A DNA stretch of 49,908 bases from Thermoplasma sp. (GTDB taxonomy: Archaea; Thermoplasmatota; Thermoplasmata; Thermoplasmatales; Thermoplasmataceae), in NCBI RefSeq assembly GCF_023256435.1, contig NZ_JAGDXM010000013.1, forward strand, positions 1 through 49,908, in the 5' to 3' direction. This document shows positions 27,814 to 36,281 of this stretch, one piece after another. Position 1 is the stretch's first letter. Each line of letters begins with the position of its first letter. The notes below the pieces were generated by a model. It was not told where the DNA came from and did no database searches. It worked only from the letters and a program-made list of their open reading frames with translations. Both the position numbers and the translations under genes were made by a program.

Positions 27814-28176
27814 TTATTTAATATTTTCTTCGTGCACAATTTTCTTTATCGTCTCCCTCACTGTGAGACCATTTATTCTGTCCAGTATGAGCGATGAAAA
27901 ATCATCCAAGCTCAGATTGACAGGTCTACTTGAATCCTTTCCAAGTTTCTCAACCAGATTCTTAGGTATCATTATCTGAACTGGAACAAAGTCTCCTCTG
28001 ACGCCACGGGATTCTAGCAATGAAGAAACTGCCTTTCTGACGAGATCGGAAATGCTTTCAAATTCTTCTTTCTGCACGAGATCCTCCATCTCTTGGATCA
28101 TCGATCCAGACAGTCTCACCGTGACCCTCTTGTCATCATTCAATCTATCTTTACCTCCTATGTCTGACATAGACAT
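27814..28176 (-). CDS. Ribbon-helix-helix (CopG/MetJ-type) DNA-binding protein
   Basis: A 120-residue protein with a short disordered N-terminus and a ribbon-helix-helix domain at about 17-55 (RVTVRLSGSMIQEMEDLV, FESISDLVRKAVSSLLE). A C-terminal region of about 60 residues is predicted to be alpha/beta and does not match a family I know. RHH proteins bind DNA as dimers through the first strand, usually to short palindromes. A 7-1-7 palindrome overlaps its first codons, so autoregulation is likely. The ATG follows an AATTTATATT box by about 20-25 bp. ATG codons at 28176 and 28170 are both possible starts. Confidence 0.82.
   Translation of the reverse strand: MSMSDIGGKDRLNDDKRVTVRLSGSMIQEMEDLVQKEEFESISDLVRKAVSSLLESRGVRGDFVPVQIMIPKNLVEKLGKDSSRPVNLSLDDFSSLILDRINGLTVRETIKKIVHEENIK
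28158..28172. promoter_or_regulatory. Perfect 7-1-7 palindrome at the RHH gene start
   Basis: CTATGTC (28158-28164) and GACATAG (28166-28172) are separated by one base. The site covers the first codons and probable transcription start of the ribbon-helix-helix gene. It has the size expected for the operator of a dimeric RHH protein. Confidence 0.5.
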
Positions 28177-28221: not shown

Positions 28222-29202
28222 TTATAACAAGAAGACTTTTTTAATTGCCTCCTCAGCGGTCGGGTATCCAATGAAATCCATATATTCCATCATAGAGTGC
28301 ATGTCATATTTCAGATGAAAATTATAGCTCTCCAGACTTTTCTTTACTAGACCCTTTCCAACTTTTGTCGCCTTGGCAAGCAGATCTATTATGTCTGACC
28401 TTATGCTGGCCTCGCTGTTTTTATAAATGCTCACAACATCGGCCAGTCGCCCATTTTTGTATCTGTCAGCTGGCACGGATATACCGCAGCATGGAAAACT
28501 GTCCATGAGATCGGAATAATCGTAAACTTTATTGCCGTCTATTGCTGAAGCATAGGGCTCCCAGATTGCGATATATCTGAAATTACCGGCTTCAAAATCC
28601 TTCCTGGCCTTCACTGGATCGTTAAATACAACCAGCTTTGCATTCTGGTGCTTTTTCTGAAATTCCCTAGAGAGAAGCATCATTGACGTCGATTCACTGG
28701 TTGCTATTAAGCTTGAACTGGATGCAGGATTTTCGAATATACCAGATCCACCTGACGCGACCGGGCCTACAACAACGATATTATGCTGAGAGAGCGCAAA
28801 AAGCGTTTCAGTAAATATGGGAGCGAGGGCAAATTCAAGTGTTCCGGATGATATGTCCTGAAGCAGAGAACCTGCATCGTTGTAAAACCTGATCATGATC
28901 CTCGTTCCTGTGCGTTCTCCATAATCCATTGCGATGCTCAGAAATCGAGCGTATTCTGTGGATCTAAGGCAGCCTATTCTTATTATGCTTGGATCATAGT
29001 AAGGATAGTATTCTCTAAGCCAGACACGCTTTGATTTTCCAGCAATCTTACGGCGGACTATCATACCTTCGGCTTCAAGCTTTGAAAGAGCTTCCGAAGC
29101 CGTTGACTTTGAAAAGCCCATCAGCTCCTCTATCTCATACTGATCTACGCCGATGGACTTTCTTCTCTTCAATTCTCTGATCAGAGTGTTTCTGAGGGAC
29201 AT
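28222..29202 (-). CDS. Winged-helix regulator fused to a solute-binding (NMT1/SsuA-like) domain
   Basis: The 326-residue protein combines two parts. Residues 1-68 form a MarR/ArsR-type winged helix (SIGVDQYEIEELMGFSKSTASEALSKL, then a basic wing). Residues about 72-326 resemble type 2 periplasmic solute-binding proteins: a strand RIGCLRSTEYARFL, the central SSSLIATSESTSMMLLSREF and the hinge IAIWEPYASAI near 205. No signal peptide is present, so the binding domain acts inside the cell, probably as a ligand sensor. The ligand is unknown; thiamine precursors, taurine or aromatic compounds bind relatives. The start ATG overlaps the upstream gene stop as TGATG. Confidence 0.8.
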   Translation of the reverse strand: MSLRNTLIRELKRRKSIGVDQYEIEELMGFSKSTASEALSKLEAEGMIVRRKIAGKSKRVWLREYYPYYDPSIIRIGCLRSTEYARFLSIAMDYGERTGTRIMIRFYNDAGSLLQDISSGTLEFALAPIFTETLFALSQHNIVVVGPVASGGSGIFENPASSSSLIATSESTSMMLLSREFQKKHQNAKLVVFNDPVKARKDFEAGNFRYIAIWEPYASAIDGNKVYDYSDLMDSFPCCGISVPADRYKNGRLADVVSIYKNSEASIRSDIIDLLAKATKVGKGLVKKSLESYNFHLKYDMHSMMEYMDFIGYPTAEEAIKKVFLL

Positions 29203-29597
29203 CACTGCAGTCCAAGATTTATCTGAGTCTCTATGAACTGCCAGAGGGCATGCTCCAGTTCAAAGGACCAGAGTGATTCTGGAACCTCTATGAAAGCAAG
29301 AACCGGCGTTATGAAGAATGCCTCAATCGCAGCTACACCCAGATCCTGCAGCCATTTGCCTAGTCCTATCTGCACACGAAAATCTGAAGGCGTACCTGAT
29401 ATGACTATTGTGAAAGCGCGATCCATGCCGAGTATCGTCCTGAAGATCCCACCCTTCTTCGCCTGAACAAGATAGCCGTTCGGATGCTGGCTTGATTGAG
29501 TTACAAAATTTTCCTCCTTAAAATAATCCTCAATGGCCTTTGACAGCTTTTCAAGATCAACGTTCTTACCCTTATATTCTCTTATGGCATATTTCAT
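29202..29597 (-). CDS. Conserved-looking protein of unknown function, 131 aa
   Basis: I do not recognise this family. The protein begins MKYAIREYKG, continues with an amphipathic helix, and has a beta-rich middle (GYLVQAKKGGIFRTILG, FTIVISGTPSDFRVQIGLG). A hydrophobic, aromatic C-terminal region (AAIEAFFITPVLAFIEVPESLW) could insert in or lie on the membrane. The ATG at 29597 is chosen because a GATTATATTACATG box precedes it by about 26 bp; the frame can extend to 29636. It is translationally coupled (TGATG) with the regulator behind it and diverges from another unknown gene across a palindromic promoter. A small-molecule or surface-sensing role with the regulator is only a guess. Confidence 0.6.
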   Translation of the reverse strand: MKYAIREYKGKNVDLEKLSKAIEDYFKEENFVTQSSQHPNGYLVQAKKGGIFRTILGMDRAFTIVISGTPSDFRVQIGLGKWLQDLGVAAIEAFFITPVLAFIEVPESLWSFELEHALWQFIETQINLGLQ

Positions 29598-29649
29598 AGG
29601 CACGTTATCCAAAGCATGTAATATAATCATTCCCATGATTTTGGTTTAT

Positions 29650-29684
29650 TGGTAATCTAGATTACCAGTAATCTTATATACTGG
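29650..29684. promoter_or_regulatory. 18-bp palindrome and second inverted repeat over a bidirectional TATA region
   Basis: TGGTAATCTAGATTACCA (29650-29667) is a perfect 18-bp palindrome. CCAGTA (29665-29670) and TACTGG (29679-29684) form a second inverted repeat around CTTATATA (29673-29680). That TATA box is about 25 bp from the plus-strand ATG at 29701. A regulator bound here would control the divergent pair. Confidence 0.65.
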
Positions 29685-29700
29685 AAAGCTATAACTATAT

Positions 29701-30162
29701 ATGGTTGAAAAAGAAAAGAAGGAAGAAGAGGAAACAAAGAAGATAACCATATCCGTCAAGGGAATAAGAGACGACATCTACAAAAACGTCAGCGAACTGG
29801 CAAAGCACACGGGGAAGACCATAGGCGAGATCACCAACGACGCCTACAGAACTTTCCTCGGAACTGTTGAAGGCGTCAGAAACATATCGCAGAACTTCAT
29901 AGAAGGTGCTAAGGGCGCAATACCTAGATACATAGACAATTTCAAGAAGTTGGAGATAACTGCAGACGATTTGAAGGATCTCGGACAGAAGGTTGCCTTT
30001 AGAAATATAGAAGAACTGACATTTCGCAACATATCTGATGAGGAATTTTCGAAATATGTGGCATTCATAGACGGTGTGAAGGTTCTGCGCATTCCGAAGA
30101 CCGTAAAGAAGACCACGGTGATAAAGATCTCAACCTTCGTGGATGAGATAATTCAAGAATGA
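29701..30162 (+). CDS. Unknown protein with RHH-like N-terminal part, 153 aa
   Basis: The product is rich in Lys and Glu at the start (EKEKKEEEETKK). Next comes KITISVKGIRDDIYKNVSELAKHTGKTIGEI, a beta strand plus two helices in the style of a ribbon-helix-helix or Arc-type fold, then a helical middle. The C-terminal half (LRNIEELTFRNIS-like segment and VKVLRIPKTVKKTTVIK) is predicted alpha/beta. No catalytic motif, signal or membrane helix is visible. The ATG begins about 25 bp after the TATA box inside a palindromic promoter, so the mRNA should be leaderless. I cannot name a family; a DNA-binding or regulatory role is suggested only by the N-terminal fold. Confidence 0.6.
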   Translation: MVEKEKKEEEETKKITISVKGIRDDIYKNVSELAKHTGKTIGEITNDAYRTFLGTVEGVRNISQNFIEGAKGAIPRYIDNFKKLEITADDLKDLGQKVAFRNIEELTFRNISDEEFSKYVAFIDGVKVLRIPKTVKKTTVIKISTFVDEIIQE

Positions 30163-32942: not shown

Positions 32943-35900
32943 TCAGCGCTTAACAACCCGAATGTGCCTGATCACCGATCCATATGTGACAGCGAAAATC
33001 AGCACTGAAATTAGAATCATCTGATAATTGTATTCGATGAACGATAAAATCATAATATATGGCGGAACAGGCCTCATCTTGACGTATAGAGTTTCGTTCT
33101 CTGTAATGTTAAGATATACAACCGAGTGTTCATAGCCACTTTTCGTCAGATATATGACGTGATACCCATATGGTAGATATAGAGTGGAATTATATCCAGC
33201 CACCCTATAGCTGAGGTTACCCGTCCTTATGGAAAACGCCTCAATATCTGAATTTATTTTGACCGTGAATATCATGATATTCAATGAAAAATTCAGAGTC
33301 TCGTTGGATTCAACCATAATTCTTTCTTTTACTGTGTCATAACCCGCTCTAGATATGGTCAAATTGTAAGTTCCATAATACTCAGATACGTTAAGTATTC
33401 CTGAGGAAGAACTGTAGTTTCCAAGATTTATATTCGAGGCGATGCCTGTTCTTATGATGATCCTGTATTCACACCTGCTGAAAGTGATGTTAAGATGTTC
33501 GTTTGGAGTGTTTATACTCATAGCGCTTGCGTAGTTTTCCCTATAGCCATCTATACCGATCATTGATATTGCATATATTCCAAACGGAATCTTCAATTCT
33601 GAACCATTGACTACCCCGTATTCTGATCCGTTGATGAATATCATGAAAGGCCCACTGTAGCCAATCGAATGAATATGTATAATTGAATTAGGTCTATAAT
33701 ATTTCACCGTGATCGTGGTGTTTGTTATCAGATCAAGATTTTCAGAAAAATTAGTTCTGAGATAGGTGGAGTTCAGGCCCACAATGCGGTATTCTCCGGA
33801 AACTGTAGATATATTCATATTTCCACTGATATCGTACACCGTACCGTTGATATCGATCCGCTGCTGTGCTTTTGAACCATCTACTAGTACGTTCAATGTG
33901 TAAACGGATCTCGTGAAATTCAGATAGACTGTCAGACTGTTTCCTTCCACAGATATGCTATCATGTATGGTTCTAAATCCGATCGTAGGGACGGCCTCTA
34001 TACTGTATGTTCCGTTCGGCAGCATGATCGAATCATTATAACAATGCTGACCGTCTACGTAAAGGCTCCAGCCTGATTGCATATCTGATACGAATGATAC
34101 ATTGTACAGCGTCTTGGATACATATGCGTAAAGCGTTAAGCCAGAACCATTTACGGCGAAATACCCGGGCAACTGCACACTGTATCCAGGTACAGGTGAT
34201 GAGTGTATCGAATAGGTTCCGTTTGGTATCATCAGCGTGGCGTTGTCTGAGTATACTGTATAATTCATCTTGTCGATGCTTATGTTAAGGGGATAAACCT
34301 CTGATCCTACCTCTTCTATCCTAACCGCATATCTTTTGAACAAGGGAAGAAACCGTATATTACTGGAATACCCGTCATATGAATTGTACATCTCCGGGCT
34401 ATAATCCAAGTATATTACGGCTGAAGTTATGTTCTCTGAGGATCCTATGGAAAATGTCCTGTTATAATACGATCCTGCAGGAATCTCAAGGGTCAGGTTG
34501 TCTGAATATAAGGTGATGTTCTGCGATAGGAAGGATATCGCCAGATCGTTTGTGGAGATCTCGCTGGATGGATTGTGCAGTTCGAGTGTGAAATTGACAT
34601 CGGTGAACGGCCTAGTATAGTGATAGCGGTAATGCACCGAAACGTTGACGTCCTCTCGGACGACCACATTGGAATACTGATAGGCAAACAGTAGTTCAGA
34701 GGAATTGGTTTCATAAAATATCCTGTATACGCCTGCAGGTATCTGGTCACGCAGCGTTACTGTCAGATTCGTGAACGAATCGATTTCAATGGGAGGAATA
34801 TGCAGATAGCATAGTTTGTAATCCGTGATGTTTTCCACGAGATACACTGCCACAGAAAGATTTCCTGTAGACGCATAGAGAGCTTCTACCTCCACATCTA
34901 CTGTATAATTCACGCCAGTCAGTATGCTGGATGGAAAATTTATGCGGATCAACGGCAGGGTGACCGATCCTGTAAAGGAGAATGTGGCTGTCCCCATGTC
35001 AGGGAAAGGCGGCACTGAAAAATATTCGGTTCTATTGAATATTTTTATCTCATAATTTCCCGTGAAGTTCATGCTGGAGCTGTATGTCCATACTGGAACC
35101 GCATACAGACCGCTGAAGCTGAAGGCCGAGGAAAAGATATCTGCCAGCGTCGCATTCACTCTGATCGGATTTCCTCCCGCGAAATATATATCCCCAGTAT
35201 AGGGTCGAATCTTGCCGTCGACCTCGTAGCTCACGTTCACGGCCGCAAAGTAATGCACTGCCGACATCGTGGCTATGAAGGGCATAAGCGTAATATTGCC
35301 TGCATCAGAACCGGTATCCGCAACATAGGCCGATGATCTGTAAAGATATATGCCAGTCGTATCTGGATTCAGGAGGCCGTCCTGGAGATGAATCGGAACA
35401 TCGTTGAGATCGAACTCTGAATCTACGCTATACATGGTGCTTCCATTCATATACAGATCAAAATAAGCTGGACCGAAGAGATAATAGGTATCATTGGCAA
35501 TGGCCAGAATATTCACAGAATACACCATCATATCGCTTTCATTGCTCTCCACGTATATTTCCGGGATCGGATCAGGTTCTGGGTACGGAAGATGGAACGT
35601 GAAATTTGATTCTGACACATCGTTTGACTGATTAAGATGTATGTATTCTGATCTATTCTCATCCGTCAGATATACAGAAGCTGGATGGCTGGTATTCATG
35701 TATTCATATTTTATCGATATCAGAAGCTCGTATGGGTATCCAGACGCATTCCGTAAGGTCTGTAGTTCAACCCTACCTCCACTCTGATAGGTATCATTGT
35801 AATATCTATAAACGTCGTAATTGAATTCCGCTGATGTCCTTTGACCGAATACATGCGATCGGACAAGATATACTGTGGAATTTGTGGCAGTAAACTGGCA

Positions 35901-36281
35901 TTCATCTCCTTTCTGCGAGATCTCTGAACTGTAAGAATATAATGTGGCTTCATTCAGGTACACCGATCCATTTCCGATTATGGTTGAATTGTAAAGTCGC
36001 AGCGATCCATTATCGACATCGATCGATGTCCAGTTGAGGTGAATCGTAGAATTGTACAGATCGAGAATCCCACTGACGTTTAGATAATGACCGTAGAGAA
36101 AGAAGTTCTCATCGGTTATATTCATTATAATCCCGGAGTTCACAGCAAGATTTCCGTACCAGTAATAATCTGAATGGGTTTCAGAGTCTCCTATGTCCAT
36201 CGAACTAGCATTGGAATGCAATACGATACCCTGGAATATTAATAGGAATAAAACGATCAAGATTGGAAGAGATCCCTTCAT
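32943..36281 (-). CDS. Large secreted repeat protein with C-terminal membrane anchor
   Basis: The 1112-residue protein begins with a signal peptide (MKGSLPILIVLFLLIFQGIVL) and ends with a hydrophobic anchor (MILISVLIFAVTYGSVIRHI) and a basic tail. Residues about 30-130 repeat LYNSTI-like turns, as in right-handed beta-helices. From about 640 onwards, roughly six units of about 70 residues carry an IPNGTYSI/LPYGYHVIY-type strand, reminiscent of PEGA or carboxypeptidase-regulatory surface domains. Dozens of N-x-S/T sequons indicate dense glycosylation. It is likely a cell-surface protein of this wall-less archaeon, with no enzymatic motif seen. It stands alone and diverges from the glcD-type operon. 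Confidence 0.85.
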   Translation of the reverse strand: MKGSLPILIVLFLLIFQGIVLHSNASSMDIGDSETHSDYYWYGNLAVNSGIIMNITDENFFLYGHYLNVSGILDLYNSTIHLNWTSIDVDNGSLRLYNSTIIGNGSVYLNEATLYSYSSEISQKGDECQFTATNSTVYLVRSHVFGQRTSAEFNYDVYRYYNDTYQSGGRVELQTLRNASGYPYELLISIKYEYMNTSHPASVYLTDENRSEYIHLNQSNDVSESNFTFHLPYPEPDPIPEIYVESNESDMMVYSVNILAIANDTYYLFGPAYFDLYMNGSTMYSVDSEFDLNDVPIHLQDGLLNPDTTGIYLYRSSAYVADTGSDAGNITLMPFIATMSAVHYFAAVNVSYEVDGKIRPYTGDIYFAGGNPIRVNATLADIFSSAFSFSGLYAVPVWTYSSSMNFTGNYEIKIFNRTEYFSVPPFPDMGTATFSFTGSVTLPLIRINFPSSILTGVNYTVDVEVEALYASTGNLSVAVYLVENITDYKLCYLHIPPIEIDSFTNLTVTLRDQIPAGVYRIFYETNSSELLFAYQYSNVVVREDVNVSVHYRYHYTRPFTDVNFTLELHNPSSEISTNDLAISFLSQNITLYSDNLTLEIPAGSYYNRTFSIGSSENITSAVIYLDYSPEMYNSYDGYSSNIRFLPLFKRYAVRIEEVGSEVYPLNISIDKMNYTVYSDNATLMIPNGTYSIHSSPVPGYSVQLPGYFAVNGSGLTLYAYVSKTLYNVSFVSDMQSGWSLYVDGQHCYNDSIMLPNGTYSIEAVPTIGFRTIHDSISVEGNSLTVYLNFTRSVYTLNVLVDGSKAQQRIDINGTVYDISGNMNISTVSGEYRIVGLNSTYLRTNFSENLDLITNTTITVKYYRPNSIIHIHSIGYSGPFMIFINGSEYGVVNGSELKIPFGIYAISMIGIDGYRENYASAMSINTPNEHLNITFSRCEYRIIIRTGIASNINLGNYSSSSGILNVSEYYGTYNLTISRAGYDTVKERIMVESNETLNFSLNIMIFTVKINSDIEAFSIRTGNLSYRVAGYNSTLYLPYGYHVIYLTKSGYEHSVVYLNITENETLYVKMRPVPPYIMILSFIEYNYQMILISVLIFAVTYGSVIRHIRVVKR

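Follow-up and report, generated by a model that had tools for sequence, protein, structure and literature searches.

A tandem array of short boxes at positions 29641-29684 of the window, by which we mean the whole 49,908-nt stretch of Thermoplasma sp. DNA that was analyzed, is probably the operator of the adjacent gene 29701 (29701..30162, + strand), which encodes a 153-aa probable RHH autorepressor. We infer that 29701 acts on its own gene through this array, binding it and exerting negative autoregulation. Comparison across the order Thermoplasmatales yields a putative regulator-operator pair that is order-wide and defined by sequence, in a group for which our literature searches turned up little on autoregulated factors. 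Two more general points emerge: an eye-catching palindrome may turn out to be a single register within a tandem-box operator, and genes clustered at one locus may be two older units that have nothing to do with each other.

The box array and its palindromes

The first-pass annotation of this DNA had described an 18-bp palindrome and a second inverted repeat around a TATA box, flanked by divergent genes, and each of these observations was borne out: the palindrome (TGGTAATCTAGATTACCA, 29650-29667) is real and perfect, the inverted repeat CCAGTA..TACTGG brackets the TATA box of the 29701 promoter, and 29202 (- strand) and 29701 (+ strand) lie on either side. Both inverted repeats are parts of a single tandem array, TTGGtttaTTGGtaatCTAGattaCCAGtaatCTTAtataCTGG, in which 4-bp boxes with the consensus CYRG recur with an 8-bp period, separated by A/T-rich 4-bp spacers (ttta, taat, atta, taat and tata, in that order). 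The boxes begin at 29641 (TTGG), 29649 (TTGG), 29657 (CTAG), 29665 (CCAG), 29673 (CTTA) and 29681 (CTGG). The array takes in the TATA box for 29701, which constitutes one unit (CTTATATA, 29673..29680, + strand), has the geometry of a leaderless promoter and is conserved in position in the orthologs. The palindrome, centered on the CTAG box, consists of that unit and its flanks and represents one register of the array, and the second inverted repeat consists of the CCAG and CTGG boxes on either side of the TATA unit.

Taken alone the palindrome is only mildly unusual, as the window contains two perfect 18-bp palindromes compared with 0.25 expected from dinucleotide shuffles; chance alone is not negligible, and the case therefore rests on comparison. 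The other perfect palindrome lies at 33266-33283, within the coding sequence 32943-36281. Genome-wide counts for the window's own genome were obtained by pattern searches, in which TGGTAATCTAGATTACCA was found as a single copy, whether the search covered the window or the full 1.55-Mb genome, with up to 3 mismatches tolerated; the further copies that the first-pass annotation had suggested looking for are absent, and we rejected the palindrome as a repeated genome-wide site. Its perfect form is species-specific, being lost in sister Thermoplasma where the box phase is kept (TTGGTAATCTGGATTATCGGTAATCTTATATACTAG), and its TCTAGA core shows no conservation in 29701 orthologs. The conserved feature is the 8-bp-spaced boxes, not the palindrome.

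The array is nearly unique in each genome. A relaxed form of the pattern matched three registers of the array and one other site, a chance match, in the window's genome. Exact three-box sites (CYRGWWWWCYRGWWWWCYRG) numbered 10 across the 77 family genomes, with 6 at 29701 promoters, so that all intergenic sites (6 of 6) are 29701 promoters; the remaining 4 were considered as additional operators in relatives and were discarded, all of them lying inside other coding sequences.

Conservation of the array and the 29202 gene

Orthologs of 29701 were found in 57 of the 77 family genomes by single-protein search, and two more families within the order, f3 and f4, added members from 10 genomes. Across the upstream regions of 39 non-redundant orthologs (<75% identical), the mean array score was 1.83 vs. 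0.56 in dinucleotide shuffles (sd of the mean 0.05), and pairs of CYRG boxes occurred 24 times at a distance of 8 bp (0.15 expected), 14 times at 16 bp (0.15 expected) and 8 times at 24 bp (0.08 expected); as these upstream regions share ancestry, the figures measure conservation rather than independent events, a problem of kinship that is limited by the non-redundancy cut and by changes of neighborhood. Counted from the start codon, box positions peaked at -36, -44, -52 and -20, and the distance between array and start codon is the same across three families (f1, f3, and f4) of Thermoplasmatales. Some orthologs (L049, L020, and L159) have only one or no clear box upstream, and class-level homologs from other Thermoplasmata (L160-L168), which are 126-127 aa long and share the two-domain layout, have no CYRG array upstream. 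Additionally, upstream of one ortholog (L076, in G024) a 16-bp unit comprising two boxes, with a TATA box (CCAATAATCTTATATA), is present three times in tandem, an arrangement that has grown by 16-bp steps, i.e., by two boxes each time.

The array was seen in at least five different gene neighborhoods and accompanies 29701 in most of those surveyed. According to product names assigned from reading the sequences, 29701 adjoins cytochrome b/Rieske genes in g9, g11, g13, and g17, phosphoglycerate-mutase-like and PDZ genes in g2, g5, and g14, and UppS in Thermoplasma; in f4 a hydrolase gene and a TauE-like gene flank it, and many genera have it with 29202 on one side and, on the other, a conserved 214-aa gene close to psmB. 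Most genera (L039-L052 and others) have a stable neighborhood in which purC, 29202, the 214-aa gene, psmB, and aCPSF1 follow one another, with or without 29701 in the gap.

Furthermore, in genus g6, where identity of the 29701 protein falls to 30-33% and R stands in place of the conserved strand residue K20, the upstream regions (L051, L085, and L086) carry ACATGT-like boxes with 9/18-bp spacing. The ACATGT-like site occurs once per genome, at the promoter of the 29701 ortholog, in the 3 genomes having the gene. Protein and operator appear to have changed together in this clade, with K20 as the predicted DNA-facing residue, and with both its boxes and this residue altered, the clade is a natural test case for RHH specificity. 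Some other DNA-binding protein distributed like 29701 could read the boxes.

The neighboring 29202 gene (29202..29597, - strand) encodes an alpha/beta protein of 131 aa, and 29202 or a paralog is present in 72 of the 77 family genomes. We place its start at 29597, and have not upheld the earlier start at 29636, because the starts of orthologs agree (nearly all begin at M(K/R)xxxREY or similar), because the 12-13 extra N-terminal residues of the longer form are not conserved in them, and because a TATA box (TTATATTA, 29619..29626, - strand), located 29 to 22 nt upstream of the corrected start, falls inside the formerly supposed coding start. Searches of Pfam, NCBIfam, PHROGs, and PDB sequences assigned 29202 to no confident family, and a fold search with its model gave weak matches alone, with TM-scores <0.5.

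The first-pass annotation had taken the palindrome to be a promoter element shared by the two divergent genes, and the array might accordingly be an operator for both, with 29202 co-regulated with 29701. We consider this unlikely. The two genes form a divergent adjacent pair in 27 of the 54 genomes and 10 of the 17 genera having 29701, and they shifted together to a new neighborhood in Thermoplasma; on the other hand, 29202 is served by a separate TATA box that is not part of the array, its start can be about 165 bp or more from that of 29701 in other genera, and genus g4 (G008-G019), from which 29701 is absent in 12 of 12 genomes, retains 29202 or a paralog in 11. In addition, 29202 is unlinked to 29701 in 23 genomes, and none of 15 non-redundant promoters of unlinked 29202 orthologs contains the array, on which ground we rejected the array as an operator of 29202 as such; it tracks 29701 instead. 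The divergent pair is old but has dissolved in other genera, and the 29202 promoter of Thermoplasma is probably at most a bystander.

The 29701 protein and other candidate binders

The layout of the 29701 protein, its weak profile matches and a distant homolog together indicate a probable RHH protein, one that also has a predicted C-terminal LRR-like solenoid. In the AlphaFold2 model, residues 1-18 form a charged disordered tail, and the RHH-like part, a strand and helices, spans about 15-61, with helices predicted at 24-37 and 41-61 in RHH arrangement after the alternating strand ITISVKG; the strand does not form in the monomer model. Residues 76-152 are confidently modeled as a beta-alpha solenoid with strand-helix repeats of about 22 residues, and profile comparison matches this region to LRR structures (1e-6 across some 55 positions). 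A fold search with the model gave no significant match. The profile matches to Arc, Omega, and RHH_1 are weak, the distant homolog has a sub-threshold match to FitA-like_RHH, and the window's own protein passes no curated RHH cut-off and was assigned to no confident family in searches of Pfam, NCBIfam, PHROGs, and PDB sequences. A literature search found no paper on the protein or its operator, and the entries Ta0547 and Ta0548m of a list from 2007 could not be matched to these genes.

Archaeal RHH repressors occlude their own promoters through cooperative oligomers (PMC5569661), and by analogy with these we propose that RHH-domain dimers of 29701 would occupy successive 8-bp boxes side by side and cooperatively. 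Dimers lined up in this way would mask BRE and TATA at the leaderless promoter of 29701, which would block TBP/TFB, such that 29701 would repress its own gene; the C-terminal solenoid is a likely place for a signal, such as a ligand, or for a partner. The repeated boxes do overlap the gene's own promoter, as is characteristic of an RHH autorepressor.

A more ambitious reading is that 29701 represents an order-wide regulator family in which an RHH domain is fused to a sensory LRR-like solenoid and a dedicated 8-bp tandem-box operator has virtually no strong counterpart elsewhere in the genome, protein and operator having changed in step in one clade, and that the protein may have a second role in the nucleoid or in partition; taken as a whole, we regard this as distinctly improbable. 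That 29701 is first of all a centromere- or nucleoid-type RHH protein similar to ParG or SegB, with the array serving as partition site and operator, is very unlikely. ParG sites are arrays in which degenerate tetramer boxes alternate with AT-rich spacers, the N-terminal tail of ParG is unstructured, and the protein acts as repressor of the operon that encodes it (PMC7308502); the single strong site per genome would also fit such a role. However, no ParA-like or other gene is constantly linked to 29701 across the neighborhoods, the sites of SegB are many per chromosome and have a different motif (PMC12284271), and plasmid and phage records yielded no homolog of 29701.

The two other candidate binders at the locus are the winged-HTH regulator 28222 (28222..29205, - strand), whose C-terminal part is possibly substrate-binding-protein-like, and the CopG-type RHH gene 27814 (27814..28176, - strand). 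The first-pass annotation had joined them with 29202 and 29701 in a four-gene module, and binding of the palindrome by the 28222 fusion regulator or the 27814 protein would make this a four-gene circuit, a reading that we hold to be very improbable indeed. Both genes stand next to the pair in all five Thermoplasma genomes, and 28222 overlaps the stop of 29202 by 4 nt and is therefore probably cotranscribed with it. Yet orthologs of 28222 and 27814, present in 18 of 19 genera, adjoin the 29202 and 29701 pair in Thermoplasma only, the array is conserved where both are far away, and elsewhere the two form part of their own pheT cluster, flanking pheT on either side (one genome with both, and coordinates for more). 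The segment 25673-29205, with gCA, pheT, 27814, and 28222, corresponds to this conserved cluster of other genera, and 28222 is convergent with pheT. We therefore rejected the four-gene module: the cluster is two older units joined in one genus. What survives of the earlier proposal of a local regulatory site is the regulatory element, with the adjacent 29701 protein as its likely binder, and not the circuit. Finally, it is extremely improbable that 29701 and 29202 are a divergent toxin-antitoxin pair in which 29701 would be the RHH antitoxin, as the weak FitA-like antitoxin match in the distant homolog might suggest, given that 29202 matches no toxin family, that it persists without 29701 in g4 and lacks the strict linkage of such a pair in the genomes where it is unlinked, and that the two genes are divergent and not operonic.

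Comparison with known RHH systems

The 29701 protein belongs to an undescribed, probably RHH-type family whose proposed mode of action, RHH autorepression, is a known one. In MetJ, RHH dimers sit on tandem 8-bp met boxes, and the binding proposed for 29701 would likewise place a probable RHH protein on tandem 8-bp boxes; the box itself differs, no regulon of 29701 was detected beyond its own promoter, and the likeness is one without demonstrated sequence relation. SegB of the Sulfolobales is an archaeal RHH protein with palindromic sites upstream of its own operon, the counterpart of the binding that we propose for 29701, but its sites number dozens per chromosome with the consensus TCTAGASTCTAGA and it is linked to segA (PMC12284271), whereas the palindrome of the window is single copy, its core is not conserved in the orthologs, and no linkage to segA was seen for 29701. 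ParG, with parH and the parFG operator of plasmid TP228, shares with 29701 the tetramer boxes, the AT-rich spacers, an unstructured N-terminal tail, an RHH domain and autorepression (PMC7308502), the last two being, for 29701, probable and proposed, respectively; 29701 differs in having no linked ParA-type ATPase and in carrying a solenoid C-terminal to the putative RHH domain. The archaeal viral proteins SvtR, AvtR, and F55 are small RHH repressors that bind several sites at their own promoters and oligomerize along the DNA (PMC5569661), and the likeness lies in multi-site occupancy of the own promoter and occlusion of BRE/TATA, which for 29701 we propose from sequence. Unlike these viral repressors, 29701 is cellular and conserved across an archaeal order, has an additional C-terminal solenoid, and is associated with an array of 8-bp CYRG boxes.
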